Assembly: GCF_026340675.1 (NCBI RefSeq)
Contig: NZ_JAPEOX010000001.1
Location: 6,324,001-6,388,000 of the forward strand
Length of the DNA: 64,000 bases
Origin: Streptomyces sp. NBC_01264
GTDB taxonomy: Bacteria; Actinomycetota; Actinomycetes; Streptomycetales; Streptomycetaceae
Reading direction: 5' to 3'
The translations under genes were made by a program, and so were the position numbers. Below the pieces are notes generated by a model. It saw only the letters and a list, made by a program, of their open reading frames with translations, was not told the origin of the DNA and made no database searches. Positions 13,062 through 31,182 of this stretch are shown one piece after another. Each line of letters opens with the position of its first letter. Position 1 is the stretch's first letter.

Positions 13062-15236
13062 GTGACATCAGCAACGCACTCCTCATCCTTCACGCCCGGC
13101 GCCGACTCGGCCGACTCGGCCGACGCGGTGCTCCTGGGCCTGGACCCGGAGCAGCGCGAGGTCGCGACGACCCTGCGCGGGCCGGTGTGCGTGCTCGCGG
13201 GCGCCGGTACGGGCAAGACCCGGGCGATCACCCACCGCATCGCCTACGGGGTCCGTTCCGGCCAGCTGATGCCGGCCAGTGTGCTGGCCGTCACGTTCAC
13301 CAACCGCGCCGCCGGCGAGATGCGCGGCCGCCTGCGCGAGCTGGGCGCGGGCGGGGTGCAGGCGCGGACCTTCCACTCCGCCGCCCTGCGCCAGCTGCAG
13401 TACTTCTGGCCCAAGGCGGTCGGCGGGGACGTGCCCCGGCTGCTGGAGCGCAAGATCCAGTTCGTCGCGGAGGCCGGCGCGCGCTGCCGCATCCGCCTCG
13501 ACCGGGGCGAGCTGCGCGATGTCACCGGCGAGATCGAGTGGGCGAAGGTCACGCAGACGGTGCCCGCCGACTACCCGGCCGCCGCCCGCAAGGCCGGCCG
13601 CGAGGCCCCCCGCGACCTGGCCGAGATCGCCCAGATCTACGGGACGTACGAGCAGCTCAAGCGCGACCGAGGCATGATCGACTTCGAGGACGTGCTGCTC
13701 CTCACCGTCGGCATCCTGCAGGACCGCCACGACATCGCCGAACAGATCCGCACCCAGTACCAGCACTTCGTCGTCGACGAGTACCAGGACGTCAGCCCGC
13801 TCCAGCAGCGGCTGCTGGACCTCTGGCTCGGCGAGCGCGACACCCTGTGCGTGGTCGGCGACGCCAGCCAGACGATCTACTCCTTCACCGGCGCCACCCC
13901 CGACCACTTGCTGAACTTCCGCACCAAGTACCCGCAGGCCACCCTGGTCAAGCTGGTCCGCGACTACCGCTCCACCCCCCAGGTCGTCCACCTCGCCAAC
14001 GGGCTCCTCGCCCAGGCCAAGGGCCGCGCCGCCGAGCACCGCCTGGAGCTGGTCTCCCAGCGCGAGACCGGCCCCGACCCGGTCTACGCCGAGTACCCCG
14101 ACGAGCCCGCCGAGGCCGAGGGCGTCGCCCACCGGGTCCGCGACCTCGTCGCGGCGGGCGTGCCGGCCGGGGAGATCGCGGTGCTCTACCGCATCAACGC
14201 CCAGTCCGAGGTCTACGAGCAGGCCCTCGCCGACGCCGGAGTCCCCTACCAGCTGCGCGGAGCCGAGCGCTTCTTCGAGCGCGCCGAGGTCCAGAAGGCG
14301 ATCCTCGCCCTGCGCGGAGCCGCCCGCTCCGGAGGCAACGACCGGCTGCTCGACGACGTCGTCGAGCTCGGCTCGCAGGTCCGGGCCGTGCTCAGCTCCA
14401 CGGGCTGGTCCCATGAGCCGCCCGCCGGTTCCGGAGCCGTCCGCGACCAGTGGGAATCGCTGGCCGCGCTGGTCCGGCTCGCCGAGGACTTCGCCCGCGG
14501 CCGGCCGGCCGCGACCCTGGCCGACCTCACGGTAGAGCTGGACGAGCGCAAGGCCGCCCAGCACGCTCCGACCGTCCAGGGCGTCACCCTCGCCTCGCTG
14601 CACGCGGCGAAGGGCCTGGAGTGGGACGCCGTGTTCCTCGTGGGCCTGACCGACGGCATGATCCCGATCACCTATGCGAAGACCGACGAACAGGTCGAGG
14701 AGGAGCGCCGGCTGCTCTACGTCGGCGTCACCCGGGCCCGGCACCACCTGACGCTCTCTTGGGCCCTCTCCCGGACTCCGGGCGGCCGCGGGTCGCGGCG
14801 GCCCAGCCGCTTCCTGAACGGCCTGAGGCCGGGCTCCCTGGCGCCGGGAAGCAGGCCGGGCGGTCCGATCGAGCCCGGGGCCCGCAAGCGGGGCCGCCGC
14901 GGCCCGGCCGTGTGCCGGGTCTGCCGCAAGACCCTGACCGACGCGGGCGAGCTGAAACTGATGCGTTGCGACGACTGTCCTTCGGACATGGACGAAGGGC
15001 TCTACGAGCGGCTGCGCGACTGGCGCGCCGTCCAGGCGAAGGAGCAGGGCATGCCCGGCTACTGCGTCTTCACGGACAAGACGCTGATGGCCATCGCGGA
15101 GGCCGCACCCTCGCAGGAGGGCGAGCTCTCGATGATCTCCGGGGTGGGTGCCCGGAAGCTCGAGCGGTACGGAGCCGATGTGCTCGCCATCTGTGCAGGT
15201 GAGGAGCCTGGGGCGGAAGATTCTGACGACGCGTAG
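13062..15236 (+). CDS. uvrD2: ATP-dependent DNA helicase UvrD2
   Basis: Superfamily 1A 3'-5' helicase of 724 aa. Walker A AGAGTGKTR near residue 47, VVDEYQDVS near 237, GDASQTIYSFTG, and motif VI YVGVTRARHHL are present. The C-terminus carries the tetracysteine element CRVCRKT...MRCDDC near 618-640 and an HRDC domain (about 663-713), the layout of mycobacterial UvrD2. A GTG at 13062 is preferred over upstream in-frame starts because the homologous region begins there; no strong ribosome site is seen. Its stop codon forms the left end of the proposed attachment core of the integrated element. Confidence 0.9.
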   Translation: MTSATHSSSFTPGADSADSADAVLLGLDPEQREVATTLRGPVCVLAGAGTGKTRAITHRIAYGVRSGQLMPASVLAVTFTNRAAGEMRGRLRELGAGGVQARTFHSAALRQLQYFWPKAVGGDVPRLLERKIQFVAEAGARCRIRLDRGELRDVTGEIEWAKVTQTVPADYPAAARKAGREAPRDLAEIAQIYGTYEQLKRDRGMIDFEDVLLLTVGILQDRHDIAEQIRTQYQHFVVDEYQDVSPLQQRLLDLWLGERDTLCVVGDASQTIYSFTGATPDHLLNFRTKYPQATLVKLVRDYRSTPQVVHLANGLLAQAKGRAAEHRLELVSQRETGPDPVYAEYPDEPAEAEGVAHRVRDLVAAGVPAGEIAVLYRINAQSEVYEQALADAGVPYQLRGAERFFERAEVQKAILALRGAARSGGNDRLLDDVVELGSQVRAVLSSTGWSHEPPAGSGAVRDQWESLAALVRLAEDFARGRPAATLADLTVELDERKAAQHAPTVQGVTLASLHAAKGLEWDAVFLVGLTDGMIPITYAKTDEQVEEERRLLYVGVTRARHHLTLSWALSRTPGGRGSRRPSRFLNGLRPGSLAPGSRPGGPIEPGARKRGRRGPAVCRVCRKTLTDAGELKLMRCDDCPSDMDEGLYERLRDWRAVQAKEQGMPGYCVFTDKTLMAIAEAAPSQEGELSMISGVGARKLERYGADVLAICAGEEPGAEDSDDA

Positions 15237-15247
15237 AAACTCGTCGG
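15225..15247 (+). mobile_element. attL of the integrated element
   Basis: GACGAC (15225-15230), five bases, then the 12-bp core GAAACTCGTCGG (15236-15247). The same core and the same GACGAC at the same distance occur at 31160-31182. GACGA and TCGTC also form inverted arms around the crossover zone, as expected for a tyrosine recombinase core site. The core begins at the last base of the uvrD2 stop codon. Confidence 0.7.
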
Positions 15248-15312
15248 GTTTCTGCTCGATTCGACGTCTGCGCAGGTCAGGGGTGGAGCGAGAGGGGCGA
15301 TCGTAGATCGTT

Positions 15313-15329
15313 TCTCACAATCTCTCACA
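15313..15329 (+). repeat. Candidate integrase arm sites near attL
   Basis: TCTCACA occurs at 15313-15319 and 15323-15329, spaced 10 bp. The same motif pair lies near attR (31063-31080). Short repeats at one helical turn on both flanks fit arm-type integrase or Xis sites, though this is inference. Confidence 0.4.
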
Positions 15330-16515
15330 CAGAGGGATTCTGAGCCCCTCCGTGGAAGCCGTCCCACGCGGTCGCAGCCGACCGCAGATCCTCGATCCCG
15401 GGGTGGACGTAGCGGCGCTTCGTGAACGAAGCGTTCGTGTGGCCGGCCCATGCGGCAAGGACGACGTCCGGAACGCCGTTCACCGCCAGGTACGTCAGGC
15501 AGGAGTGCCGGGCGTCGTACAGACGGACCCGTCGCAGGCCGGTGCTGTCCATGAGCCTGTACGCGTACTCGCGCAGCTGCCGGGTGTTCATCGGCAGCCC
15601 CAGCTCGTCGACCGCCACGTAACCCGTGTCGGTGTACCCCTCGCCCGCGGCCAGCTTCTCCCGGGCCTGCTGCGCCTTGAAGCGCTTCAAGGCCTCGAGC
15701 GGCCCCTGGGGGAGCGGCAGGGCACGTTCCCCGGACGACGTCTTCGTGTCCTTCTCGAGGACCCGCACGTTCCCGATCATCGTCCTCGTGTTGGCGATCT
15801 CCACAGAGCCCGCCTTCAGGTCCATGTCCGTCCACCGCTGGCCGCAGACCTCAGCCGGCCGAAGACCCATCAGGGACAGCAGCAGCGGGGCGTACAGGCG
15901 ATCCTGCTCGATCCCCTTCACGAAGCGCTGCACCTCGCTGACCGACCAGGGCGCCGCCCGCGTCCGGTCCCGCTTGTCCGTCTTCTTGTCGGCCAGGGAG
16001 ACCCGCACGTACTGGGCGGGGTTCGTCGAGATGTGCTTGCGGACGACCGCTCTGGCCAGTGCCTGCCGTAGGCGGTTGAGCACCACCACGGACGTCGATA
16101 CCGCCAGGCGCGTACCGGGCTTCCCTCCGCTGCGCCGGCCGCTGGCCACCAGCTCGTCGACGAACTCCTGTACGTGGTCCTCGGTCAGCTCCTGCAAGCG
16201 GATGTGCCCCAAGCGCTCCCGCGGGTGCAGCAGGTTCAGCTCGTAGGTCGTAATGGACGTCTCCTCGACGTCGCGGCGCTTGTACTCCAGCCACTGGTCC
16301 AGCCACTCGGCAACGGTGAGTTTGCTCGGGACGATCAACGTCCCTCCGGACCGTTCCGTCTGAATCCGCGCACGCTCGGCCAGGACTTCCTTCTTGGTGT
16401 CCTTGGTGATCGTGAGCTGGATCCGCTTGCCGTTCTCGTCGTGGCCAGCATCGACGACCGTGCGATACCGAACGGTGCCGTCTTGCAGCGTGATCTTCTT
16501 GATGGGGTCCGGCAT
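15325..16515 (-). CDS. int: Tyrosine site-specific integrase
   Basis: A 396-aa phage-type tyrosine recombinase. It has an N-terminal arm-binding segment, a SAM-like core-binding domain (about 65-165) and a catalytic domain with Arg219 (GLRPAEV), Lys258 (TKTSSGER), Arg336 (YDARHS), His359 (WAGHT) and nucleophile Tyr369 (RRYVHP). The usual first His of HxxR is a Tyr here. ATG at 16515 has AGGAG upstream. Its stop lies about 80 nt from attL, the normal place for an AICE integrase. No excisionase gene is directly adjacent; HTH candidates lie at 23.0-23.5 and 29.7 kb. Confidence 0.93.
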   Translation of the reverse strand: MPDPIKKITLQDGTVRYRTVVDAGHDENGKRIQLTITKDTKKEVLAERARIQTERSGGTLIVPSKLTVAEWLDQWLEYKRRDVEETSITTYELNLLHPRERLGHIRLQELTEDHVQEFVDELVASGRRSGGKPGTRLAVSTSVVVLNRLRQALARAVVRKHISTNPAQYVRVSLADKKTDKRDRTRAAPWSVSEVQRFVKGIEQDRLYAPLLLSLMGLRPAEVCGQRWTDMDLKAGSVEIANTRTMIGNVRVLEKDTKTSSGERALPLPQGPLEALKRFKAQQAREKLAAGEGYTDTGYVAVDELGLPMNTRQLREYAYRLMDSTGLRRVRLYDARHSCLTYLAVNGVPDVVLAAWAGHTNASFTKRRYVHPGIEDLRSAATAWDGFHGGAQNPSV

Positions 16516-16630
16516 GCCTTGCTCCTAGGTCTTGAACCACTGTCCGAGCGGGTGCAGTTGCGGGGAGCCCTGAGACCTCCCTGCGCGCGTTGCGGCCTGG
16601 ACGTACATATGGCGATCGGCTTGCGGTGAT

Positions 16631-16924
16631 CTACAGCAGGCCCGGGTGCTCCTCGCCCGGCCGGCGACGGCCCGGCTTCTGACTGGCCGCTCGGGCCGCT
16701 GCAGCCTCGCGGGCCGTCTTCTGCCGGTGGCAGGGATCGCACACGCCCTGCAGGGCCTCGAGGCGGTGGTCATCGGTCATGGCGCGGATGTGGTCGGCGA
16801 CCGTCGCGGCACGCACTCGGCACAGGACGCAGGTCACGTCCCGAGCGAGAACCTGCCTGCGGAGCGCCTGCCAGTTCTTCGGCAGCCGGCTCTTCCGCTT
16901 CGACGTGCCCCAGTTGTGGGCCAT
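16631..16924 (-). CDS. HNH endonuclease
   Basis: A 97-aa protein with the HNH fold seen in phages: a CVLC knuckle, VADHIRAM with the central His, then LQGVCDPCHRQKT with the second CxxC and final His. The start at 16924 has TGGAG six bases upstream; an ATG at 16939 lacks a ribosome site. In cos-type phages a small HNH protein works with terminase in DNA cutting and packaging. Here it lies just upstream of the integrase and 80 bp beyond a terminase-like gene, which suggests such a role for the element. Confidence 0.85.
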   Translation of the reverse strand: MAHNWGTSKRKSRLPKNWQALRRQVLARDVTCVLCRVRAATVADHIRAMTDDHRLEALQGVCDPCHRQKTAREAAAARAASQKPGRRRPGEEHPGLL

Positions 16925-17003
16925 CAGGACTCCATTCATGCAGGCCGGAGGGGTGGGGAGGCGCCCCCCGACGTGGTCACCGGGGATCGCAGAGGTATTG
17001 CCG

Positions 17004-17234
17004 CTAGGGCTGGCTACGGGTCTGGGGGTTTTGGGTCTTCCAAGCTGGGGGCTGCAGGTACGACGTCACGTCCTCGCCGGCCGCCCACGCCTGGCGGGCG
17101 ACGGACCAGCGGATCCGGGCGTAACCGACCTCCAAGGGGTCCTCGAGGTCATCCACCCACCAATCGGCGGGGTCGAACGCGGCCAGCTCTGGCGGGGGCT
17201 CCCCGAAGCGGGCCCGGGTACGGCGCCGGCTCAT
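17004..17234 (-). CDS. Hypothetical protein between TerS and HNH
   Basis: A 76-aa basic/acidic protein (DPADWWVDDLEDPLEVGYARIRW core) without a recognised domain. Its ATG at 17234 overlaps the stop of the terminase-like gene by 4 nt, so the two are probably translated together. The C-terminal tail is Pro/Gln/Thr-rich. Function unknown; the position suggests a packaging accessory. Confidence 0.7.
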   Translation of the reverse strand: MSRRRTRARFGEPPPELAAFDPADWWVDDLEDPLEVGYARIRWSVARQAWAAGEDVTSYLQPPAWKTQNPQTRSQP

Positions 17235-17596
17235 CCGGCCCGCCCCCAGCGGACGAGCGCGGCCTGGCGGGCCTGCGACGAACGGGCCCGGCGGTCCCGC
17301 TCCTCCCCGGCCTCGTCATCCTGAAGCTTCAGAGCGGCCAGGAGGCGGGCCACAAGGGCGCGGTGCTGCCGCAGCTCCTGTACCAGCGGGTTGGCGACGT
17401 CCTGGCCCATCGAGCCCTTGACGACCAACTGGGCGTCCTGCAGCTCAGCGTGCATCCGCTCGATGAGATCGACCTCCCGGCAGGCGTCCTCGAGGACGCG
17501 CAGCTCGTCGGTACGGAGATCGTTCTCCTCCGTGATCACCTTCCAGAGGCGCGATCCCTGCAGGCCAAGCCCCACGGGCGGTTCGTACAGAGCCAT
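17231..17596 (-). CDS. Phage terminase small subunit, P27-like
   Basis: A 121-aa helical protein resembling P27-family (Terminase_4) small terminase subunits: LGLQGSRLWKVITEE at the N-terminus, a helix with DELRVLEDACREVDLIERM, then the family-like stretch GSMGQDVANPLVQELRQHRA and ARLLAALKL. Small terminases recognise DNA for packaging into phage heads. ATG at 17596 has AAAGGGGG upstream; a GTG at 17599 is also possible. No large terminase, portal or capsid gene is present in the element, so it would have to work with a helper phage or has been co-opted. The assignment is from pattern memory, not a search. Confidence 0.75.
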   Translation of the reverse strand: MALYEPPVGLGLQGSRLWKVITEENDLRTDELRVLEDACREVDLIERMHAELQDAQLVVKGSMGQDVANPLVQELRQHRALVARLLAALKLQDDEAGEERDRRARSSQARQAALVRWGRAG

Positions 17597-17608
17597 CACG
17601 GCCCCCTT

Positions 17609-17851
17609 TCAGGTCCTGAAAAACACAGCGCAATCAGCACGCAGAAGGTCAGGTGCTATACGGCTTCGATCCGGGAGAACCGGGGGGAGGGGGGTATTGC
17701 CCCAACCCTTGCGGGTGCCCCGGACGGACCGTGTGGCCCGTCCGGGGCTTCGGCGCTGGTGCGGCTCGAGGTAGCCGGCTCCGCACCATCGGTTCGACGC
17801 TCGTCGAGAGATCACGATGTCGATGCCGTTGACGCCGAGTTCGTGGGTCAC
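17609..17851 (-). CDS. Possible small ORF (low support)
   Basis: A frame of 80 codons starting at GTG 17851, which overlaps the stop of the upstream 275-aa gene by 4 nt (GTGA). The first part (THELGVNGIDIVISRRAS) looks protein-like, but the rest spans a strong hairpin at 17717-17748 and has poor codon character. It may be noncoding. Confidence 0.25.
   Translation of the reverse strand: MTHELGVNGIDIVISRRASNRWCGAGYLEPHQRRSPGRATRSVRGTRKGWGNTPLPPVLPDRSRIAPDLLRADCAVFFRT
17717..17748 (-). terminator. Hairpin between the 275-aa gene and TerS
   Basis: GCCCCGGACGG pairs perfectly with CCGTCCGGGGC around a 10-nt loop. It lies after the 275-aa gene and before the terminase-like gene, so it may terminate or attenuate transcription into the packaging-like block. 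Confidence 0.6.
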
Positions 17852-18675
17852 GCGCTGAGCGCCTGCGCGACGTAGGCCTCGGCGGTCCGAGGGGAGAGGG
17901 CTGACCGGTGGGCGTGGCCGGCGTTCCGCCAGAGCTCCACCTGGGAGCTGCGTTCCCTGACTTCACCGGGCGTTGCGAGGCTGAGGGTGAGCTGGTCCTG
18001 GCGCACGAGGTACACCCAGCGTGCGACGGGCTGCTGCCGCAGGTCCCGCCAGTCGTGCAGTACCGGAGCCATGCTCTGCCAGTCGCCGTTCATGACGGCC
18101 TGCACGGTGGGCTGAGGGAAGTGGGCGACGGCGAACAGGGCGTTGTCCCTGCCTCCGTCTCCTCCTGCGACGCTCACGATGTCGGCTCGGTCGTTGACGA
18201 GCTGTTCCAGCAGGGCAGCTGCTCCCTCAGCCTTGGTGTAGGCGGTCGAGTGGACGGGGTTGTTCCAGTCCAGTCGCGACGCCTCGATGAGGGAGGGGTC
18301 GTCGGGCAGCTTGGCCGCAGCCTTGGCGACGACACCGACCAGGGTGGTGAACTCCGCGACCAGGCCACCGATCCACTTGGGCACGGCGTCCTTCGTGGCG
18401 CTGATGAATCGCTGGTCGGCTTCCTCGGTGAATAGATCGGCGGCCCGCCGAGTGACGTCGGCGAGGCGGAGCTCCTCGGCGTGCTGCCGGATGACGGCGG
18501 CGGCTTCGGCTGCGGTGGCCGGGAGGGCCGGCCGTTCGGGGTCGGGGGTACGTGCGGTGTCGAGCACTGCGGTCTGCAGGCGCCGGGCTTCGTAGACGTC
18601 TTCGGGTACGGGCAGCTTCCGACGCTCGGCGGCGCGGACGGCCTTCTCGGCGTCGTTGACGCTGGCTCGGGACAT
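17848..18675 (-). CDS. Hypothetical element protein, 275 aa
   Basis: An Ala-rich, mostly helical protein, with a charged N-terminus (MSRASVNDAEKAVRAAERR) and a mixed C-terminal half. No domain, signal peptide or membrane segment is recognised. Its ATG shares one base with the stop of the 191-aa gene upstream (TGATG), so the pair is likely translated together. Lying between replication genes and the terminase-like gene, it may be a structural or packaging-related accessory; this is inference from position only. Confidence 0.75.
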   Translation of the reverse strand: MSRASVNDAEKAVRAAERRKLPVPEDVYEARRLQTAVLDTARTPDPERPALPATAAEAAAVIRQHAEELRLADVTRRAADLFTEEADQRFISATKDAVPKWIGGLVAEFTTLVGVVAKAAAKLPDDPSLIEASRLDWNNPVHSTAYTKAEGAAALLEQLVNDRADIVSVAGGDGGRDNALFAVAHFPQPTVQAVMNGDWQSMAPVLHDWRDLRQQPVARWVYLVRQDQLTLSLATPGEVRERSSQVELWRNAGHAHRSALSPRTAEAYVAQALSA

Positions 18676-19250
18676 CACGCGGCCTCCATGTCCTCGGTGG
18701 CCAGGGCGCTGGCCTGGTGGTCGTCGAGGTTGGCGATCGGGCTGGGCTTGGCGAGGAGGAACTGCATGCCGTGCTTGGTCTCCCAGAAGTCGTCTCCGGT
18801 GCCCGGCAGGCTGTTCCACTCCTTCGCGGCGTCGGCGAAGGCCGGCGTGCTGGCGGCGTACTGGTCGACGACTTCGGTCCAGCCGTAGGTGTTGGCGTGG
18901 GCGGCGACGGCCTGGGCGAGGGTGCGGTCGCCGTCGCGTTCGGCGCGCTGGAGCGTCTCGGCTGCGATGCGCGGGTTGTCGATGGCGGCGGCCCGGTCGG
19001 CGGCGTCCCGCCTGGCGAGGACGGTGCTGGGGTCCGCGGTGCCGGTGCTGCCGAACATCTTCCGGTTGAGCTGCTCGCGCCGACTGGACAGCTCGGCAAG
19101 TTCGGCCTGCCGCTGCTGCTCCAGCTGTTGGGCGGCCTGCGTCCAGGCCTTCGCGCACAGCACCTTCTTGGCGTGGTCGCTGTAGGCGCGGTTTGCCTGG
19201 ATGCGGTCGAGCTGCTGCTGGTAGCGCTCGCGGATCTGCTCGGCGTTCAT
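18675..19250 (-). CDS. Hypothetical coiled-coil protein, 191 aa
   Basis: The first 70 residues are a charged amphipathic helix likely to form a coiled coil (QIRERYQQQLDRIQ... and QQLEQQRQAELAELSSRREQ). The remainder includes AERDGDRTLAQAVAAHA and a GTGDDFWETKHG segment. The general look recalls uncharacterised proteins in phage structural clusters, but I cannot name a family. ATG at 19250 overlaps the stop of the 66-aa zinc-ribbon-like gene by 4 nt, and its stop overlaps the 275-aa gene. Confidence 0.75.
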   Translation of the reverse strand: MNAEQIRERYQQQLDRIQANRAYSDHAKKVLCAKAWTQAAQQLEQQRQAELAELSSRREQLNRKMFGSTGTADPSTVLARRDAADRAAAIDNPRIAAETLQRAERDGDRTLAQAVAAHANTYGWTEVVDQYAASTPAFADAAKEWNSLPGTGDDFWETKHGMQFLLAKPSPIANLDDHQASALATEDMEAA

Positions 19251-19447
19251 GAGGGGTTCCCTTCGGTGGCTTCGGGGTGGGGCTGGTGGTTGGGGCAGAT
19301 GGGTGCGTGGGCGTCGGTGCAGGGCCCGGCGGCGAGGGTGTGGAGCCGGGCCCCGCAGCCGTTGAGGCAGAGGCGGTACCGGCCGCGCCGGACCGGTGTC
19401 CCGCAGGCCTGGCAGAGCCGCGGTGGGCGGCGCCTGGGGCGGGTCAC
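19247..19447 (-). CDS. Small Cys-rich protein, 66 aa
   Basis: It starts at GTG 19447 with AAGGA upstream and reads VTRPRRRPPRLCQACGTPV, then CLNGCG and two more Cys, so it may bind zinc. It is linked by 4-nt overlaps to the genes on both sides (GTGA upstream, ATGA downstream), which is good evidence that it is translated. Function unknown. Confidence 0.65.
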   Translation of the reverse strand: MTRPRRRPPRLCQACGTPVRRGRYRLCLNGCGARLHTLAAGPCTDAHAPICPNHQPHPEATEGNPS

Positions 19448-19590
19448 CGCCCGTCCTTGGCGTACTTGTCCCGGTGGGCCCGGGTGGCGCGTTTGGGGCT
19501 GCAGGCCGCGCAGATACTTCGGCAACCTGAGGGGCTGTTGCAGAGGCTGCACATGCGCCCGCTGCGCTGCTTGTCCTGCTTGCGGCTCAC
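19444..19590 (-). CDS. Small Cys-rich protein, 48 aa
   Basis: GTG at 19590; the frame encodes VSRKQDKQRSGRMCSLCNSP...CRSICAACSPKR..., with a CxxC...C...CxxC layout typical of a small zinc ribbon. The stop overlaps the GTG of the 66-aa gene by 4 nt. It is the first gene of the run leading into the packaging-like block and lies just downstream of the iteron-like repeats. Confidence 0.6.
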   Translation of the reverse strand: MSRKQDKQRSGRMCSLCNSPSGCRSICAACSPKRATRAHRDKYAKDGR

Positions 19591-19646
19591 GCTCTGTTAC
19601 TCCGATCTGCGGGGCGTGGAAAAACGCTCTCTGTGTAGGGCCCAAG

Positions 19647-19836
19647 TGCGTACCCCCTGTTTGCGGGCAGGTTCGGGCCCGTTGACCTGCATCTCTGCTC
19701 GATCGGCGGGGGTACGCAGGGCTGCGTACCCCCTGCCCCCCTGAGGCCTGGGGCGGGGTGGGGGTACGCACTGCTGCGTACCCCTCTCGCATGGGGTCTG
19801 GCCTGCAGGTATGGCGTTCCCAGGTGGGGGTACGCA
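19647..19836. repeat. Iteron-like array of GGGGGTACGCA repeats
   Basis: Six copies of an 11-bp motif in alternating orientation: TGCGTACCCCC at 19647, GGGGGTACGCA at 19708, TGCGTACCCCC at 19723, GGGGGTACGCA at 19760, TGCGTACCCC(T) at 19775, GGGGGTACGCA at 19826. The middle four make two inverted pairs 52 bp apart. The array fills the 294-bp gap just downstream of the DUF927 gene. It could be the replication origin of the element or an operator for the packaging-like block. Confidence 0.75.
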
Positions 19837-19884
19837 CGTGGGGCGACCAGAGGGCCTGTTTTTCTACGGGGGTGGGGGGTGCTG

Positions 19885-21615
19885 TCACTCTCCGTCCTCC
19901 TCCGTGGTGGCGAAGACGCTCGGGTGGAAGACGTACATGCGGACCTTGGAGCCGTTGAGCTTGCGGCCGAGCAGGTAGGCCGGGCGGTAGGAAGGGCTCT
20001 CGATCAGGAGACCGCTCTCCCGCCAGCTGGGGATCACCGATTCGAGTTCGTACCCGGACCTCTTCAGCGTTTCCTTTAGCCGCTCGGGGAGGAGCCCGAT
20101 GGTGGGTTCTTCGTCGATGTGGAGGTCACGGCCGATCCATCCGCTGAACGGCTGCTCGTTCGCTGTGCCGGGCGCCCACAGCGCGCGTCGGTTGGCGGCG
20201 ACGTACTCGCGGACTACGTCCAACGCCATCTCGCCGCGGTTGTCGGTCTGGTCGGATACCGCGAACAGGCGGCGCCACACGTCCATCTGCGGGGCCGCGA
20301 ACGGGACGATGCCCCATTCGCTGGCGAGCTCGGCGGCCAGCGCCAGGCAGGCCACCAGGGGAGCCCGCCGGGCCGACATGTCGCTGTCGTACCGGTGAGC
20401 CTCCGTCAGGGCCTTGTGCCGGGCGGCCAGGGCCCGCTTGCCCGGTCCGGCGATGGCTTCGATGAGCGCTTCGATGAAGCGCGGGCCGGCGGTGCCGAAG
20501 TTCTCGGCGCATCCGTCGCGCACCTCGATGGCTGCGGATGCCGACTCGGCGCCTCCCGTTCCGAACGGGGCTTCCTTCACCGTCAGGACGCGGGCGCCGG
20601 CCCCCTGGTCGGTGGTAAAGGTGAGCACGGACTGTTCTCCGGTGGACACCATGACCGTCCGCCAGGGGAGCCCGGAGGGCCACCCGCCGCCGCGGGCCTG
20701 GCCGTGGTTCTTCGGGATGGAGTAGAGCAGGGCGTGCACCATCTCGGGGTCACGGACCAGCTTGGTCTCGTCGAATACCACGGGCAGGCCGTTGACCAGG
20801 TTGAGACGCTTCTCGGCGGCGAGCATCGTGGTGCGCCAGGAGTACATCCCGTCGGCCTTCTCGCTGGGGTCGGCCCAGACGCTCATCCCCCCGGCCGCGG
20901 CCGTCGTCTTGCCGCGGGTGGAGCGCCCGCTGATGTCGACGGTGAAGGAGTTGACGCCAACGAGCTCGAGGAGCGGGGCGGCGAGGCAGGCGTACAGCGC
21001 CATCTGCGCCGCCGGGTACGCCTCCATCCCCTTGATGGCGGCCTGCCAGCCCTCGAACGTCCCGGCCGGCTGATGGGCTGCAAGGGCTGGCTTCTGCTCG
21101 TCGTACTTGACCTCCACCCGGTGCGGGCTGTCCTGAGCGGTGACGAACGATCCATCCTTCTGCCAGCCGAGTTGGCGGGCCAGGTGGACGCGGGGGATCT
21201 TGCTGCGGTTGAGGGACTCGAACGCGGCCAGGTAGCGCTCGGTCAGCTTGGCGTCGGACTCAATGACGGGCAGGCCGGCGTCTCCGAGGGTGGCGACGAG
21301 GATGCGGCCCCGCCTGACCACGGACCGGGGGACGGTCCGGGTAACGACCCGGGACCCGTCCACCCACGCCAGCTCGACGGCCTGGTCCCCAATGGGGTCG
21401 ACGTACACGCAGTGGACGACCAGCGGGGCCCAGCTGATCCGCACGTCGACAAAGACGTCCTTGGAGATCTGCTTTTCGACCCACACGCCACCGTGGTTGA
21501 TGCTGTAGCCGGACGGCATCCGTACCCCTTCGGGTACGAGCCGCGTGTCCGACCATTCGGCGGGGGCGGCCTGCTCGTCCGTGTCAGGCTTCTCGAGGGT
21601 TGCTTCGGTGGTCAT
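19885..21615 (-). CDS. DUF927-domain replication ATPase
   Basis: A 576-aa protein with a DUF927-type P-loop ATPase: GRSTRGKTT near residue 230, and LPVVFDETKLV near 285 as a Walker B-like segment. The N-terminal 200 residues are a mixed alpha/beta region and the C-terminus holds a winged-helix-like stretch. DUF927 proteins act as helicase partners of primases in mobile elements. Its ATG overlaps the prim-pol stop by 4 nt, so the two are made together as the replication unit. Confidence 0.85.
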   Translation of the reverse strand: MTTEATLEKPDTDEQAAPAEWSDTRLVPEGVRMPSGYSINHGGVWVEKQISKDVFVDVRISWAPLVVHCVYVDPIGDQAVELAWVDGSRVVTRTVPRSVVRRGRILVATLGDAGLPVIESDAKLTERYLAAFESLNRSKIPRVHLARQLGWQKDGSFVTAQDSPHRVEVKYDEQKPALAAHQPAGTFEGWQAAIKGMEAYPAAQMALYACLAAPLLELVGVNSFTVDISGRSTRGKTTAAAGGMSVWADPSEKADGMYSWRTTMLAAEKRLNLVNGLPVVFDETKLVRDPEMVHALLYSIPKNHGQARGGGWPSGLPWRTVMVSTGEQSVLTFTTDQGAGARVLTVKEAPFGTGGAESASAAIEVRDGCAENFGTAGPRFIEALIEAIAGPGKRALAARHKALTEAHRYDSDMSARRAPLVACLALAAELASEWGIVPFAAPQMDVWRRLFAVSDQTDNRGEMALDVVREYVAANRRALWAPGTANEQPFSGWIGRDLHIDEEPTIGLLPERLKETLKRSGYELESVIPSWRESGLLIESPSYRPAYLLGRKLNGSKVRMYVFHPSVFATTEEDGE

Positions 21616-22508
21616 GGCGCTCCCGCAGTCGTGCGCCGTGCGGACGCAATGGTTCTCTGGGCTTCGGCCTCAGCCAGGCCACGGCGGACGGCCGCTTCTA
21701 CGAGCGCAGCCTCGGCATCGCAGGCCGCGATATGCCCGTCCATCACGTGCGCCCAGGCCTTTGCCGCAGCCCAGTACAGGCGGTCGTTGCGCGTGCCGTC
21801 GGGCGCCCCGAGCACGACGTTCACGAGCCCATCCAGGGCGGCGGTGGCCTTGTCGCCGGTAGGTACGTACTGGCGCGCGGGTCGGACGATCGGCGCGGGA
21901 AGCATCAGCTGGATCAGTTCCGCCGGGGCAGGCAGTACCTCGATCTCGCCGAGGGCGGGGTGAAGCACGTATTGGCCGCTGCTGCCCTGACTGCCAGGGC
22001 CGACGACGTAGCCGCCGGTACCGCGGACGTCGATCCCGGGGCCGAGTCGGCCGGCGCTGTTGGGGATGGTGACCCCGGCGGGGACGGCGAACCAGAGGTG
22101 GAACCCGCCGGACGGGGTGCAGACGGTGAGCGTGCGGGGCACCGTGAACCCGTGCTGGGTGGCCAGCCGGTTGAGTTCCGCGACGCCGTCCACGCCGTTC
22201 TTGCGGTCGAGATCGAGGCCGATCATGCGCCCGCCGCAGGCGATGCCGTATCCGTCCGCTCGTGGGGCGAGCTCGAACAGGCAACGGACATCAGCGGCAA
22301 CGGTGGTTGCGTCGTACACGCCGTGTCCCGGCTGACCGCACTGCCCTTTGCAGTTGTGGCCCCGCTGGTGGGGCGAGGGGATGGCGGGGACCTTGTTCCG
22401 GGTGGGGAAGACGGCGTTCCCTCGGGCCGCTGCCTGCAGGGCCTCACGGAAGGCTGACTGCCAGGCCGCGTACCGGGCGCCGTCGCGCTCCTTGGTCCAG
22501 GCGTTCAT
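21612..22508 (-). CDS. Bifunctional DNA primase/polymerase (prim-pol)
   Basis: A 298-aa AEP-superfamily prim-pol. The catalytic acidic pair GLDLDRKNG is near residue 98 and the SGGFHLWF motif near 133; a Cys/His-rich insertion HNCKGQCGQPGH lies near 51. In AICEs this protein is the replication initiator. ATG at 22508 was chosen because it overlaps the stop of the preceding gene (ATGA) and leaves the family N-terminus intact. It pairs with the DUF927 ATPase downstream. Confidence 0.9.
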   Translation of the reverse strand: MNAWTKERDGARYAAWQSAFREALQAAARGNAVFPTRNKVPAIPSPHQRGHNCKGQCGQPGHGVYDATTVAADVRCLFELAPRADGYGIACGGRMIGLDLDRKNGVDGVAELNRLATQHGFTVPRTLTVCTPSGGFHLWFAVPAGVTIPNSAGRLGPGIDVRGTGGYVVGPGSQGSSGQYVLHPALGEIEVLPAPAELIQLMLPAPIVRPARQYVPTGDKATAALDGLVNVVLGAPDGTRNDRLYWAAAKAWAHVMDGHIAACDAEAALVEAAVRRGLAEAEAQRTIASARRTTAGAP

Positions 22509-22750
22509 CGTGCCTCCCTCAGCCAGCCGGCGACCGTGATGATCGCGTCGAGCACGGGTTCGTCGTCGGCCCGGTGGAGTTCGCCGAGCTGGGCGATGTA
22601 CTCGGCGCGGTTGGGGTTGTTGTCCTGCCAGCACATGGCGCTGATCAGGGCGGTGAGGGCGGCGTGGCTGTAGTGGGTGATGGACTCTTCGGCGTGCTCG
22701 GGGCCGAGAGCTTCCTGCAGGAGGTCCAAGACGTGGCGGTCGTCGCTCAT
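22505..22750 (-). CDS. Hypothetical element protein, 81 aa
   Basis: A small acidic helical protein (MSDDRHVLDLLQEALGPEH...). No known domain. It overlaps its neighbours by 4 nt at both ends, so it belongs to the replication operon. Function unknown. Confidence 0.7.
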   Translation of the reverse strand: MSDDRHVLDLLQEALGPEHAEESITHYSHAALTALISAMCWQDNNPNRAEYIAQLGELHRADDEPVLDAIITVAGWLREAR

Positions 22751-23049: not shown

Positions 23050-23315
23050 GAGGCTTCTCGGTCCTCCCCGGAGAGCAGACGAACGAGGTCTGCGGTGATG
23101 ACGACGCGGAACCTGCCGAGCGGAATTGTCTTGACGGGCGCATCTCCCCGCCTGATGGCGTCGTACAGGTAGGTCCTGCCGCAGCCGAGGGCCGTTGCGG
23201 CCTGGTCGATGCTGACGGTTGCCGGCCACTTCCGGATGTCGGACAAGGTGGGCGCGGAGACGTCATTAGCGGCACCTCGCTGGCGGCGGGAGCCAGCCTG
23301 CTTCGGGGTACTCAC
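23046..23315 (-). CDS. Excisionase-type HTH protein (candidate Xis)
   Basis: 89 aa. A winged helix-turn-helix of the HTH_17 kind is visible in ATVSIDQAATALGCGRTYLYDAIRRGD, followed by a GRFRVVITADLVRLL wing. Such proteins serve as excisionases or regulators. GTG at 23315 overlaps the stop of the preceding HTH gene. Confidence 0.75.
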   Translation of the reverse strand: MSTPKQAGSRRQRGAANDVSAPTLSDIRKWPATVSIDQAATALGCGRTYLYDAIRRGDAPVKTIPLGRFRVVITADLVRLLSGEDREAS

Positions 23316-23509
23316 GCTGCGGCTCCGTCCTGCTCGCCGTCCCAGCGGTCGAGCTTGTCGGGGTCGTAGAGCCATCCCTGGCCGCGCTTGACGGCGCCGG
23401 GGATGTAGCCGCTGTTTCGCCACCGTCGAACGGTGGCCGGTGCGACGCGGTAGCGGCGGGCCACTTCCTGGGTCGTCAGGTATTTGTCGATGCGTTCGGC
23501 GAGCGCCAT
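23312..23509 (-). CDS. MerR/excisionase-type HTH protein
   Basis: 65 aa: YLTTQEVARRYRVAPATVRRWRNSGYIPGAVKRGQGWLYDPDKLDRW is a complete HTH_17 domain. It is the first gene of the leftward replication operon, driven by the divergent promoter region at 23.5-23.65 kb. It is a candidate excisionase or copy-control regulator. Confidence 0.8.
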   Translation of the reverse strand: MALAERIDKYLTTQEVARRYRVAPATVRRWRNSGYIPGAVKRGQGWLYDPDKLDRWDGEQDGAAA

Positions 23510-23537
23510 TTCCGTTGACCTTTCATGGCTGAACGGT

Positions 23538-23651
23538 TGGATGTGCATCCACGACAACTGGGTCTGTTGTAGCACGGGTGTCATGGATGCGCAATCATGG
23601 GTGGCGTGGATGTGCATGCCCGTTGACTAGCGGTGGAATCGGGCATAACGT
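23538..23651. promoter_or_regulatory. Divergent promoter and operator region of the element
   Basis: Rightward promoter: TTGACT at 23623-23628, 17-bp spacer, TAACGT at 23646-23651; the start of transcription would fall on or near the GTG at 23658, so the mRNA is probably leaderless. Leftward promoter: TTGCGC at 23594-23589, 17-bp spacer, TACAAC at 23571-23566. GGATGTGCAT occurs at 23539-23548 (within TGGATG-TG-CATCCA) and 23608-23617, with a related GGATGCGCAATC overlapping the leftward -35. This looks like a regulatory switch. Confidence 0.7.
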
Positions 23652-23657
23652 CGGCTC

Positions 23658-24227: not shown

Positions 24228-24240
24228 TCGCTGCACACGT

Positions 24241-24270: not shown

Positions 24271-24394
24271 TTTACCGTCGTTACCTTGCAGGTCACGGGG
24301 CCCTACCTCCCCCGCTACCGGGGTAAAGAGGTCCCGCTACTTTGGGGGCCTCGAGGAGGGCGTGCCGAACCTCGGATCGGGGGTGCCGGAAGGG

Positions 24395-24424
24395 GCCGGG
24401 TAGGGCCCCTCCCCGCTACCCGGC
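24395..24424 (-). terminator. Terminator overlapping the FtsK stop
   Basis: GCCGGGTAG pairs with CTACCCGGC; the stem includes the stop codon of the FtsK-like gene and would end the leftward transfer operon before the convergent regulator. Confidence 0.6.
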
Positions 24425-26545
24425 GAAGGGCACGGCGCCCTCGATGTCGCGGCGTTGGTAGCCGGCGCCGTTGACTCCGTCGATCTTCACTTGCTTGCTG
24501 GTGCGCTTCACCCCGGCCTGGTCGAGGTCCTTGGCCAGGCGGTCGGCGTCGTAGTCGCCGTAGGTGTCTTCGTCCATGTTGGACAGCCGGTCGAGGAGGT
24601 CCCGCGTGAACATGCGGGGGCTGTGCTTCATGGCCTCGAGGACGTCGGAGATGATGGCCGGCACTCGCAGGCCCTGCTCCTCTGCGCCGGTCACGAGGTC
24701 ACCGGCGGCGTCTCCGGTGAGCTGCCCGATGTCCTTGCGCATGGCACGACCCTTGGCGCACATGGCGTTGAACTCGGCGGTGGTCAGCAGGTCGTTCTTG
24801 ACGGTGGCGAAAGACGCCGGCCCGGTGACCAGGACGACGACGCCCTTGTGGTCCTCGGACAGCACCGACGCATCGGCGCCCATCGAGGCCTTGCCCTTGC
24901 CCAACACCATGTCCGAGGACGTCTGGTCGGTGACCTGCGTGCACGCGCGGATGGTGATGATCTCGCGGAGCTTCGTCGGGACGCTCTCGGCGTCGGGGCG
25001 CTGGCTGGCGTAGTTGGAGATGAAGCCGGCGGCCGGTCCGCGGCGGGCGATGCGGGCCATGTCGTCGATGACGGCCTTGCGTTCCTTCTCGTCGCCGATG
25101 GCGATGAAGCATTCCTGCAGCTCATCGACGGTGAAGAAGATGAACGGCATGTTGTACTTCTCGACGATGTACGGGGTCAGCTTGCCCTCGGGGCAGATGC
25201 TGGTGGGCAGCTCCCGCAGGATCGCGAAGCGGCGTTCCATCTCCGACAACATCTCCTGCAGCATCGCCTTGAACGCCTCGATCGCGTCGTCCTCGGCACC
25301 GAGGACCAGGCGGTGGGCGACCTGCCGCATCTGCATCCAGTCCTGCCCGCCCTTGAAGTCGGCGACGTAGTGCCGCACCCACGGGTCGAGGAGGCCGGCC
25401 GCCGTCAGCAGGCGCTGCGTGAACGTCTTGCCGCGGCGGGGCAGGCCCCCGAAGAACATCGACTGCCAGACCACCGGTACGGCCACCCGGTTGCCGCGGG
25501 CATCCTGCCCGAACGGGACCGCGTCCCACACCGAGAACCGGTCCAGCTTCACCAGCGGCGACGGGATCGGGTCGGCCAGGTACGGGTCATCGTCGGCAAC
25601 CCACATTGACACCCGCGACGCGTTACCGCCCTGCGCTGCGCGGACGCGGGACATGACGACCTGAATCTCGTCTACGCCGAGCTCGGCGGCGAGGGTGGTC
25701 CGCTTGGCGAGAACGTCCGCAGCAGTCTTCCCGCCGCCCTTCGGCAGGTCGAAGACAACCGCCCAGCCGCGGCCGTCACGGACCGGCCCCATGATGCAGG
25801 CGACCTTGGGTCCGTCTTCGTCGCCCTTGCCGCTTTTCAGGAGGCTGGCGGCGCGCAGCGCGTCGTTGAGCTGCTGGGCGCTCATGTCGACGCGCAGAGG
25901 CGGGACACCGTGGTCGAGCAGCTGTGTCTTGTCGCCGCGGCCGAGGTAGGCGAGCGGGGTGACGACGGCGCCGGTCATGCCGGTCAGCAGCAGAGGCGGC
26001 GCCAGGTAGAAGCCGAGCGCAGCAGCGGTAACACCGACGGCTGCCGCCCCGAACCGCCAGCGGCGGGAACGGGTACGGATGCCGTGGGCGAGCTGGAGCT
26101 GAGCGGCCAGCTCGACGTCTTCGGGCTTCAGCCTCGACTGCGCCCGCAGCGCCTTGTACACGGCGGTGTGGTCCTGCGCGGACAGGGTCGGCCACAGGCC
26201 CACGGCGGCCCGGTAGAAGCCGCGGGAGGCCAGCCACACCGTCTTGACCGCGTACTTGGGGACGCGGATGCCGTGGAAGCGGGTGTGCCACCAGCACAGC
26301 CGGCCGAGGGCCGTGGTGTTGGCCTTCAGCAGTGCCGGGGTACGGGCCCACGCAGGCAGTACGGGCGCGTCGGGGACGGTCAGCCAGTCGGCCAGCGGGT
26401 TGTCCGGGCGGTCGACGGCCTCGACGGTCGGGGCGGGCGGTTCGGGGCGCTCCGAAGCGGCGGGCGCGGGGACGGGTACGGGCTTGAGAAGGGTGATCGG
26501 GTGGCCGTTGACCGGTCCAAGGATGGTGTCCGTCATGCTGGTCAC
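24416..26545 (-). CDS. traB: FtsK/SpoIIIE-type DNA translocase (Tra)
   Basis: A 709-aa transfer protein. A Pro-rich N-terminus precedes two hydrophobic segments (about 165-200, GVTAAALGFYLAPPLLL...), then the FtsK-like motor with Walker A GGLPRRGKTF (366-375) and Walker B FIFFTVDELQE (about 469-479), and a C-terminal winged-helix-like region. In streptomycete AICEs and plasmids one such protein moves double-stranded DNA between mycelia. GTG at 26545 has CCAGGAG upstream; an ATG three codons later is possible. The symbol is by analogy to pSAM2/pSVH1-type TraB. Confidence 0.85.
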   Translation of the reverse strand: MTSMTDTILGPVNGHPITLLKPVPVPAPAASERPEPPAPTVEAVDRPDNPLADWLTVPDAPVLPAWARTPALLKANTTALGRLCWWHTRFHGIRVPKYAVKTVWLASRGFYRAAVGLWPTLSAQDHTAVYKALRAQSRLKPEDVELAAQLQLAHGIRTRSRRWRFGAAAVGVTAAALGFYLAPPLLLTGMTGAVVTPLAYLGRGDKTQLLDHGVPPLRVDMSAQQLNDALRAASLLKSGKGDEDGPKVACIMGPVRDGRGWAVVFDLPKGGGKTAADVLAKRTTLAAELGVDEIQVVMSRVRAAQGGNASRVSMWVADDDPYLADPIPSPLVKLDRFSVWDAVPFGQDARGNRVAVPVVWQSMFFGGLPRRGKTFTQRLLTAAGLLDPWVRHYVADFKGGQDWMQMRQVAHRLVLGAEDDAIEAFKAMLQEMLSEMERRFAILRELPTSICPEGKLTPYIVEKYNMPFIFFTVDELQECFIAIGDEKERKAVIDDMARIARRGPAAGFISNYASQRPDAESVPTKLREIITIRACTQVTDQTSSDMVLGKGKASMGADASVLSEDHKGVVVLVTGPASFATVKNDLLTTAEFNAMCAKGRAMRKDIGQLTGDAAGDLVTGAEEQGLRVPAIISDVLEAMKHSPRMFTRDLLDRLSNMDEDTYGDYDADRLAKDLDQAGVKRTSKQVKIDGVNGAGYQRRDIEGAVPFAG

Positions 26546-26552
26546 TCCTGGT

Positions 26553-26574: not shown

Positions 26575-26582
26575 GGCTGGGG

Positions 26583-27822: not shown

Positions 27823-27921
27823 CTAGCGGGGTGTGTTGCAGCAGAGGCAGCGGCGGGGGTTGCGGAGCCCGTTCCAGGTGTCGCAGTGACGGCACCTCCA
27901 GCGGGCGAGCAGCGCGCTCAC
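27823..27921 (-). CDS. Micro-ORF with zinc-ribbon cysteines, 32 aa
   Basis: GTG at 27921 overlaps the stop of the SpdB-like gene by 4 nt. It encodes VSALLARWRCRHCDTWNGL, then CLCCNTPR: two CxxC pairs in 32 residues. Coupling and cysteine spacing suggest a real microprotein. Confidence 0.5.
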   Translation of the reverse strand: MSALLARWRCRHCDTWNGLRNPRRCLCCNTPR

Positions 27922-28835
27922 CGGTACGCGGCGCGGTCGAGCTTGCTCCGCTCCCGCCGCACAGTCGCCTCGACGGACGCCTGCTTGGCGTCCGGGACCT
28001 TGGCGAGGATCGCCTCGACGGCTTCCTGCTTGGAGGCTCCGGCGGTCAGTTCGATGCGGGCCAGGTGCGAGAGGTTCGCCTCAGGTTCGGACGGTTCGCG
28101 AACCGTGTTCGCCCTGTTCAACGCGGGTTCCCGGAGCCGGGAAGGCTCCTCGTGTTCGCGGACCTGTTCGGCCGTGATCACATTCCCGCTGCCGCGAAAG
28201 TGATCAAGCCCTGCCAGTTCGTTCAGGTCCCGCTCGGCGGCCAGGAGCTCCAACCGTGCGTGAACTTCCGCCTTCGCGGCCTGCCGGCGTGCGCTGGCGA
28301 TGGCGAGCTTGGCGTTCGCCTTGCTCATCTCCGCGGCGACCCACTGGGAGTCGGCTGGTGACAGTTCCTTGTCGACGTGCTTGAACACCGCCCACCACAG
28401 AGCCTTCGACACCAGCGACACTGCGGCGCCGACTGCGGCCATCTCCCAGCTGCCGATCTCCATGCCATGCAGGAAGATCGCGGCGGCGGCCACGAGGACC
28501 AGGCCGAGGCCTACCTTGCGCGGGAGCTCCTGTTTCTTGGGGTCGAAGCGGGCCAGGTACTCCAGCACCAGCACCGACAGCCATGCGATGTCGAAGACCG
28601 CGCCGGCCGCGTAGCCGACCCCGCCGCCGAGCAGCTGCCCGATGCTCACCGTCGACCAGACGATCGCCACGAGCGTGAGCGCCAGGACCAGACCGGAGAC
28701 GCCGACAAGGGCGATCGTGTCCTTGTCGCGGGGCAGCTTCGGCATCCGCACGCTGTACGGCTCGGACACCTGGTTCGTGGTGCCGTCGATGGTCCGGTCG
28801 ACCAGGCGGTGCCGGATCTCTTCAACGAACTTCAT
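27918..28835 (-). CDS. spdB: SpdB-like membrane protein (DUF2637-type)
   Basis: 305 aa with four hydrophobic segments between about 40 and 165 (ALVGVSGLVLALTLVAIVW, FDIAWLSVLVLEYL, GLGLVLVAAAAIFLHGM, VGAAVSLVSKALWWAVF), followed by a long charged C-terminal cytoplasmic domain. DUF2637/SpdB proteins of Streptomyces plasmids and AICEs promote spread of the element within the recipient mycelium. It is located upstream of Tra in the same orientation. Confidence 0.8.
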   Translation of the reverse strand: MKFVEEIRHRLVDRTIDGTTNQVSEPYSVRMPKLPRDKDTIALVGVSGLVLALTLVAIVWSTVSIGQLLGGGVGYAAGAVFDIAWLSVLVLEYLARFDPKKQELPRKVGLGLVLVAAAAIFLHGMEIGSWEMAAVGAAVSLVSKALWWAVFKHVDKELSPADSQWVAAEMSKANAKLAIASARRQAAKAEVHARLELLAAERDLNELAGLDHFRGSGNVITAEQVREHEEPSRLREPALNRANTVREPSEPEANLSHLARIELTAGASKQEAVEAILAKVPDAKQASVEATVRRERSKLDRAAYR

Positions 28836-30190: not shown

Positions 30191-30985
30191 ATGAAGCCAT
30201 ACGAGAAAATTGCCGCTGACCTGCGGCGTCGCATCGAAGCGGGCGAATGGGCTGCGGGGGACACGCTGCCTACGACTGACCAGCTTGTGGCCCACTATGA
30301 GCACTCTCGGCAGACTGTCCGGACTGCAGTTGAGGTGCTCGCCCGCGACGGGCTCGTTCGAGTCGTCAAGCGCAGCGGGACGATCGTTCAGGACAGGTCG
30401 GTGGGCCGGCGGCGCATCGCTCGGTCGACCACCGTCATGCGTGACCCGCTCCGCGGATACGTCTTCCCGGCGGCGAGCCGGCCGGATGAACCGTGGGAGG
30501 TTCACGGTCAGCCCAAGCGCATGCTTGCGCCGATTCCCTCCGGCGTCGCTGAGCGGCTCGGCCTGGAGGCTGGCCTGGAGGTGATGCGCAGGCGCCGGGT
30601 TACCAGCCCTGCAGGGGAGCCCCCCTTCCAGATCGCCGATGCCTGGATCCACCCTGACGCCCTCCGGGAGGCGCCCCAGGCAGGAGAGATCAGCACAGGG
30701 CCGGGGGGTTACCTGGACCGAATCGAGGAAGCCGGCCATGGCCCCCTCGAGTGGGAAGAGACCACACGGATTCGCATGCCGGCCAAGGAAGAGGCCAGCC
30801 TGCTCCAGGTCGCCATGGAGATGCCTGTCTGGGAAATGACCACGGTCGGGTTCTCCGCCCGGACGGGGCAACCTGTCGAAGCGTCTGTCCGCGTGATCCC
30901 CGCCGATAGGGCAGAACTGGTCTCCAAGCTCCAGCGAGGCCCCTCGGCGCAGTGGCCCGTGGAACCCGTGACTCCGAAGGCGTGA
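30191..30985 (+). CDS. GntR/HutC-family repressor (KorSA-like)
   Basis: 264 aa. The N-terminal winged HTH (YEKIAADLRRRIEAGEW...TDQLVAHYEHSRQTVRTAVEVLARDG) is followed by a UTRA ligand domain, the HutC subfamily arrangement. AICEs such as pSAM2 carry a GntR-type repressor (KorSA) that holds the element in the integrated state. ATG at 30191 has AAAGGAG upstream. Two palindromic operators lie upstream. Confidence 0.85.
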   Translation: MKPYEKIAADLRRRIEAGEWAAGDTLPTTDQLVAHYEHSRQTVRTAVEVLARDGLVRVVKRSGTIVQDRSVGRRRIARSTTVMRDPLRGYVFPAASRPDEPWEVHGQPKRMLAPIPSGVAERLGLEAGLEVMRRRRVTSPAGEPPFQIADAWIHPDALREAPQAGEISTGPGGYLDRIEEAGHGPLEWEETTRIRMPAKEEASLLQVAMEMPVWEMTTVGFSARTGQPVEASVRVIPADRAELVSKLQRGPSAQWPVEPVTPKA

Positions 30986-31159: not shown

Positions 31160-31182
31160 GACGACATCTCGAAACTCGTCGG
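31160..31182 (+). mobile_element. attR of the integrated element
   Basis: GACGAC, five bases, then GAAACTCGTCGG (core 31171-31182), matching attL in core and spacing. The next bases, AAAAATAG, are chromosomal and form the AT-rich part of the wblC promoter. Confidence 0.7.

Follow-up and report, generated by a model that had tools for sequence, protein, structure and literature searches.

We analyzed a 64-kb stretch (64,000 nucleotides, hereafter the window) of the genome of Streptomyces sp. NBC_01264. It contains a mobile element of about 15.9 kb, from about 15237 to 31182, which carries genes for a small terminase subunit (TerS), a 76-amino-acid protein (p76) and an HNH endonuclease. This element is probably an actinomycete integrative and conjugative element (AICE) with a packaging module of the cos (cohesive end site) type, resembling those of the phage satellites known as phage-inducible chromosomal islands (PICIs), and may be a conjugative phage satellite. 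An earlier note on this DNA, made from the sequence alone, had proposed such a hybrid for 15325..19590; the element actually extends well beyond that interval.

The window proteins were mapped on 13 elements, the window included, and the related genomes are given by their handles (G193 and so on). Loci with weaker TerS relatives or in phage contexts (L014-L017, L020, L021, L022, L024 and L027) were not counted among the 13. The comparison covered 20 kb each of G193, G068 and G124 and parts of G253 and S. albidochromogenes, and genes in the relatives were called by a simple in-house script.

The TerS gene and the cos-like site

The five proteins named in the earlier note are encoded by intact open reading frames (ORFs) of the minus strand, at or near the positions it gave. 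TerS (17231..17599, minus strand) has relatives among phage TerS proteins, and its GTG start is followed by an ATG at 17596. It matched PHROG 1496, 'terminase small subunit', at 1.1e-23 and Pfam Terminase_4 (PF05119) at 4.6e-6 (27.4 bits, above the gathering score of 24.7). Terminase profiles therefore do match the protein at 17231-17596, as the proposal had demanded. The narrower name given to it, 'P27-like', is only loosely right, because TerS reached 12.4 bits against the NCBIfam P27 model TIGR01558, below the curated cut-off of 45.6. The TerS of phage Bernal13 is related to that of the window, with 48.6% identity over residues 8-75. The predicted HNH endonuclease beside the integrase (16631..16939, minus strand) is of phage type, with a match to PHROG 333 at 1.4e-25, which agrees with the earlier assignment; its match to Pfam HNH was 0.13 only.

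The p76 gene (17004..17234, minus strand) overlaps the stop codon of TerS. No convincing family match to p76 was obtained in Pfam, PHROGs or NCBIfam, and there were zero matches in 50,697 phage records. Relatives 41-53% identical were found after TerS in G193, G068, G124, G727, G535 and S. albidochromogenes, and also in G419. By eye p76 looked like the N terminus of a large terminase, but the idea that it is a remnant of one stayed unproven, the profile comparison giving a probability of 0.6% and a P-value of 0.1. The 84-amino-acid protein of prophi91-3 and the 74-amino-acid protein of JSForest2, which likewise follow TerS, showed no convincing likeness to p76 when aligned together with it.

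Neighboring genes of the module overlap, yet a gap of 140 to 544 nt (gap ends set by hand) holding conserved blocks separates unk276, the gene upstream, from TerS in nine elements. The putative cos region of the window (17600..17671, minus strand) lies in this gap. It comprises a 24-nt core, ATCGAAGCCGTATAGCACCTGACC, at 17670-17647, which is 48-71 nt upstream of the TerS start, and a TerS-side flank reaching to 17600. The cut was predicted as TAT|AGC between 17658 and 17657. A GC-rich hairpin precedes the site. The block nearest TerS is GATCGAAGCCGTATAGCACCTGACC in the window, and here the window and G193 were identical at 45 of 49 positions. The 24-nt core was present in the gap with at most six mismatches in 10 of the 13 elements, and a 17-bp core had a single exact match in the genome of NBC_01264, the next best carrying 2 mismatches. 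A search for cos-like sites inside the element had been suggested as a check; the site upstream of TerS answers it, and it agrees with the ends of phage records as described below.

A 16-bp core, CCGTATAGCACCTGAC, was found in 48 viral contigs of IMG/VR, with similar flanks in the 48 contexts. A relative of HNH lay upstream of the core in 28 of the 48 and a relative of the large terminase downstream in 33; one or both were seen in 43, both in 18 and neither in 5, counts to be read with the fact that the stored contig pieces often stop before the second gene. The order HNH-cos-TerS also spans the ends of the Footloose record, which begins with TerS and has HNH as its penultimate gene.

Three blastn queries (the window site, a contig site of 161 nt and a composite of 61 nt) gave no cos-type match in phage records. 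We therefore turned 41 distinct viral-contig sites into a matrix and ran it along the rejoined record ends of nine isolated phages, which were hand-picked from 60 of 1510 large-terminase phage records and from TerS relatives. The top match fell exactly at the record end junction in five of the nine (phiHau3, Yosif, Aaronocolus, phiCAM and Amela). The match at the ends ranked second in Joe (34 nt from the record end), second in Mendokysei and fourth in Bernal13, and eight of the nine records start with AGC. Across the 64-kb window the best match was the predicted cut at 17657/17658, with a score of -19.0, followed by -36.9. When the window site was aligned with the ends of Bernal13, Mendokysei and phiHau3, none of 1000 shuffles (preserving base composition only) was as good in each case.

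The TerS-side flank varies by TerS group. Window-type elements have a ..GCGTGC..TTTTTC part in common with Bernal13-type ends; the left end of Bernal13, AGCACCTG..CCTGCGTGC, resembles AGCACCTG..TCTGCGTGC of the window. Elements of the second TerS group have blocks CTGACCTGCGG and GCAGGTCAG in common with part of the viral contigs. In the reading proposed here, the elements would have cosN, the cutting half, in common with phages, but a private TerS and a private TerS-side half.

Within the genus, a 23-nt core occurred in 6 of 295 genomes, at 7 places: the window, a satellite-type locus on contig 26 of G419, and five places with a phage-type HNH, three of which had a large terminase within the 3-kb pieces. 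G419 also carries a prophage-type locus with HNH and a large terminase on contig 14. Its satellite-type locus combines an integrase and a tape-measure-like gene with TerS, p76 and unk191; neither unk276 nor a Tra of the first two groups described below was found there, the G699 type of Tra not being sought. The two G419 loci have identical 23-bp cores and differing TerS sides.

A second cos-like site of opposite orientation was observed in G089 (joined L054-L055, 18998), G068 (L011, 9799) and S. albidochromogenes (L018, 664). It lies downstream of p76 in two of the three, and the inverted sites flank the TerS region.

Conjugation-type genes and the insertion site

The sequence marks of AICEs described in PMC3218068 are an integrase (PF00589 or PF07508), a replication protein of the RepSA, RepAM or Prim-Pol type, and an FtsK/SpoIIIE-type Tra (PF01580). 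All three are present in the element. The tyrosine integrase (15325..16515, minus strand) matched PF00589 at 1.6e-18 (67.5 bits, cut-off 27.1) and PHROG 1 at 2.8e-56, and the Prim-Pol replication protein (21612..22508, minus strand) matched PF09250 at 2.5e-32 (113 bits, cut-off 22.8). The third, an FtsK/SpoIIIE-type transfer protein, Tra (24416..26545, minus strand), passed PF01580 narrowly. By these published criteria the element is an AICE, which bears out the class proposed for it earlier. Together with the DUF927 replicative helicase-like protein (19885..21615, minus strand; PF06048 at 1.6e-32, PHROG 8841 'DNA primase/helicase' at 1.9e-98), Prim-Pol gives the element a predicted replication module of its own.

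Three exact copies of the 8-mer GTAGCGGG (at 24311, 24333 and 24412; 24311..24419, minus strand) form repeats at the end of tra that resemble a cis-acting locus of transfer (clt). They fall within 109 nt, and the 64-kb window holds 11 copies on both strands. TraB proteins recognize 8-bp repeats of this type. In G681, whose Tra is related, three copies of GTAGAGGG stand at the same place. Repeated 8-mers after tra were rare in shuffles for four of the six tra genes found in the elements (15/500, 9/500, 0/500 and 0/500) and common for the other two (366/500 and 413/500); the upstream control stretches gave at least 368/500 in all six.

The element is bounded by a direct repeat, attL (15225..15247, plus strand) and attR (31160..31182, plus strand), with the core AAACTCGTCGG at 15237-15247 and 31172-31182. 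attL lies at the 3' end of a UvrD-type helicase gene, whose stop codon ends at 15236. Of the 21 genomes searched with the joined flanks, 13 gave a match. One of these is the own genome, in which the flanks matched as two separate pieces; in the best relative they matched as a single piece, 91% identical over 303 bases, which is an uninterrupted site. The flank matches in relatives indicate that about 15.9 kb was inserted at the 3' end of the helicase gene, and no tRNA gene is present at that place. The pair of repeats and the uninterrupted site in relatives also give the element the specific attachment sites expected of a satellite.

Genes for portal, capsid and large terminase were not found among the element ORFs scanned with Pfam, PHROGs and NCBIfam, as the earlier note had it; NCBIfam covered part of the ORFs, and some small ORFs were scanned in only some of the libraries. 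A near-identity plasmid search with the whole element returned a single record, a Streptomyces plasmid with an FtsK-type gene at 77%.

The remaining genes of the element include an excisionase-like helix-turn-helix protein (23312..23617, minus strand; HTH_17 at 2e-12, PHROG 66 'excisionase and transcriptional regulator' at 1.6e-11) and a GntR/UTRA regulator (30191..30985, plus strand; PF00392 at 3.1e-17, PF07702 at 3.1e-12), which from its position we take to be KorSA-like. pSAM2 has a GntR regulator as well. The protein encoded beside tra (27918..28835, minus strand) has relatives in G699 and G681 and matched PHROG 35187, of unknown function, at 2.3e-34; it had no Pfam match and can be called 'Spd-like' by position only.

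Alternative explanations and proposed mode of movement

Several observations weigh against an AICE with a cos-type packaging module. The Tra score against PF01580 was 25.6 bits, with a gathering score of 24, and the best PHROG of Tra was 1358, a phage-borne FtsK/SpoIIIE-like family, at 3.1e-27. Tra was not found in 7 of the 13 elements, several of which were covered only in part. The top four matrix matches missed the end junction of Footloose, whose TerS is related, and that of the 11-kb JSForest2 record, and shuffles equaled the window site in 25/1000 for Footloose and in 79 to 510/1000 for the other five phages. Record ends are physical ends by the convention of depositors, and the phiCAM record is labeled circular. 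The letters of the matrix are independent of phage ends, but its cut position was chosen when the ends of Footloose and phiHau3 were already known. Among the elements themselves, the site was absent from the top three matches in G699 and G535, ranked second in G182 and third in G656, and was lost at the contig end in S. albidochromogenes. The unk276 protein was not found in IMG/VR viral contigs (a scan for close relatives) or in phage records, nor unk191 in phage records. Finally, the search of the own genome yielded one prophage-like region with a large terminase, at about 5.425-5.452 Mb of contig 1 (L146-L147), whose portal-, capsid- and tail-like genes were judged by eye. It shows no site like the cos of the element, so that a helper resident in this genome is not evident, and the helper would probably be a phage of other origin.

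The point on Tra bears on the best of the alternatives, that the element is purely a phage satellite, its FtsK-type protein acting in DNA handling or packaging instead of conjugation. An FtsK-type Tra was found in 6 of the 13 elements, in three groups (window and G681; G182, G656 and G089; G699), the first two of which are distantly related. FtsK-like families carried by phages match both the window Tra and the FtsK-type protein of G699, which leaves room for a non-conjugative role of the window Tra. The window Tra matched the plasmid_TraB model weakly (19.8 bits, cut-off 800). The lack of Tra in the other seven elements, as far as they were covered, indicates that the packaging module does not need Tra. 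On the other side, tra sits with the GntR gene and others as in AICEs, and the repeats that follow four of the six tra genes speak for conjugation. We consider a pure satellite unlikely.

An anti-phage decoy is less likely still. Under this explanation TerS, p76, HNH and cos would titrate the packaging of a helper, and the element would move by conjugation alone. Satellites commonly interfere with their helpers, as described for those treated in PMC6092414, and G089 and G253 keep HNH and the cos-like site, with TerS not found by the searches made. Against it, the cos-like site stands in cis beside a TerS of the element's own, and its flank varies with the TerS group, an arrangement of the kind that packaging requires. 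Other packaging-type and structural genes also occur among the elements: G699 has a large terminase of its own, together with HNH and a different TerS (Terminase_7), and tape-measure-type proteins are encoded in G124, G089 and G419.

Decay of phage genes that were acquired by recombination beside the integrase is very improbable. The absence of a known function for p76 and the unknown proteins would suit such a passive leftover. The genes are open, however, and the set unk191-unk276-TerS recurs together in 9 of the 13 elements, joined by p76 in 6 of these 9, with integrases of four groups (an integrase was not found in G089). Related TerS proteins were found in 10 of the 13, and the cos core remains recognizable where TerS identity is only 36-77%. 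Across 297 genomes of the family, 9 had TerS; unk276 was present in 5 of 391 genomes from the order and in 8 of 392 from the genus, and each count takes in the own genome.

It is equally improbable that the conserved site is regulatory, a late promoter for instance, and ties the TerS operon to helper expression. This would suit its position upstream of that operon, between HNH and the large terminase in viral contigs, and behind a GC-rich hairpin, but a promoter would not mark record ends, so the junction matches in five of nine phages and the AGC start of eight weigh against it.

Sequence tests bear out TerS, HNH, the cos-like site and the repeated occurrence of the module across elements; packaging, a helper and transfer are inferred, as follows. 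As an AICE with a cos-type packaging module, the element would be excised by the integrase and excisionase and, judging from the protein families, replicated by Prim-Pol and the DUF927 helicase. In one mode of movement, mating, Tra would pump the circular DNA in double-stranded form into a recipient cell, with the 8-bp repeats that follow tra as its guide. The other mode would require an active helper phage with the same cosN. TerS of the element, perhaps with p76, would bind the TerS-side half of its own cos and recruit the large terminase of the helper; the common cosN would be cut with the HNH of the element or of the helper, and element DNA would enter helper capsids. Adaptation or remodeling of the helper head, or interference, would fall most plausibly to the proteins unk191 and unk276.

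These two belong to an overlapping set of genes with unk213 (19247..19888, minus strand). The unk276 gene (17848..18678, minus strand) adjoins packaging-type genes in the elements compared, and unk191 (18675..19250, minus strand) lies upstream of it. Both proteins were predicted to be all-helical, with predicted local distance difference test (pLDDT) values of 95.7 and 88.2, respectively, and neither model had a viral fold match at E <= 0.001. Searches found 71 proteins for unk276 and 16 for unk191, the window's own included. By position beside TerS, the two recall the size-redirecting genes of staphylococcal islands named in PMC5052747. Directly after unk276 lies a conserved non-coding block (17746..17847, minus strand) with two covarying helices, in which 99.2% of cells were paired and six pairs had changed on both sides (ten gaps). 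This block is possibly a structured RNA of these elements; an Rfam search of 17500-17950 gave two chance-level matches only, and no family for the block.

Some further observations concern related loci. Tape-measure-type genes lie at L012 11047-14178, L054 14246-18502 and L167 11061-14380, in satellite-type elements where no other tail genes were seen. In the closely related G699 element (L047 1114-3151), the Terminase_7 TerS, large terminase and HNH stand alongside the FtsK-type Tra. The gene before the large terminase in it (L047 1114-1521) has matches to two families, PHROG 226 'minor tail protein' and Pfam Terminase_7. phiHau3 gp5 and Yosif gp6, just upstream of the large terminase, are annotated 'minor tail protein'; given the double match of the G699 gene, these phage genes may be small terminases. 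The records of the Mycolicibacterium phages JSForest2 and Maddie1 (L028, L029) are 11 kb long, with TerS, capsid and tape-measure genes and no annotated large terminase subunit or portal, and look like packaged satellites. Just outside the element, the window encodes a protein of 1100 amino acids (34346-37648) that, judged by eye, has an ATPase-like N-terminal half and TPR-like repeats.

For the elements as a group, we propose a family of Streptomyces conjugative phage satellites, a reading slightly more likely than not. Its members would leave the cell by FtsK/TraB-type conjugation of double-stranded DNA or in helper particles, with cosN common to a widespread phage group and TerS and the TerS-side half private, and some members would swap in a large terminase or tape-measure gene. 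It is usual to place conjugative elements and phage satellites in distinct classes, each with its own machinery. If the proposal is true, one small element joins both routes, could choose between them by circumstance and could cross barriers that stop either alone, and the known hosts of TerS-redirecting cos satellites would extend to antibiotic-producing actinobacteria. The predicted cut and the 23-bp core offer a handle for finding satellites and candidate helpers in Streptomyces genomes, and one genome (G419) carries both a satellite-type and a prophage-type locus.

Comparison with known systems

No conjugative satellite was described in the parts of the literature examined, whose scope left out subscription papers and preprints. 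The element is like the Prim-Pol AICEs of the SLP1 group (PMC3218068) in its tyrosine integrase, Prim-Pol and FtsK/SpoIIIE-type Tra. The AICEs of that paper are defined without packaging genes, and 'terminase' occurs 0 times in its main text, whereas the element of the window has packaging genes.

Among satellites, the capsid-forming PICIs (cf-PICIs) and Mulch and Flayer, as described in PMC10690885, also carry packaging genes, and Mulch and Flayer infect Streptomyces. They encode capsid, portal and large terminase, none of which was found in the element. The TerS-carrying Staphylococcus aureus pathogenicity islands (SaPIs) covered in the same source use pac sites; the element has a cos-like site, an HNH gene and an FtsK-type Tra.

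The cos-type PICIs SaPIbov5 (PMC5052747) and EcCICFT073 (PMC6092414) are also comparable. As described there, they are integrated, have about one third of the size of a phage and carry a helper-like cos; the element, at 15.9 kb, is about one third of phiHau3 (50,255 bases). Unlike in these PICIs, Ccm or another capsid homolog was not found in the element, which has its own TerS, its own HNH and cos together, a conjugation-type module and a Streptomyces host. EcCICFT073 has functional cos sites even though no phage cosB could be recognized in them (PMC6092414). By analogy, this would be the nearest precedent for an element that has the same cut as its helper and a different TerS half.

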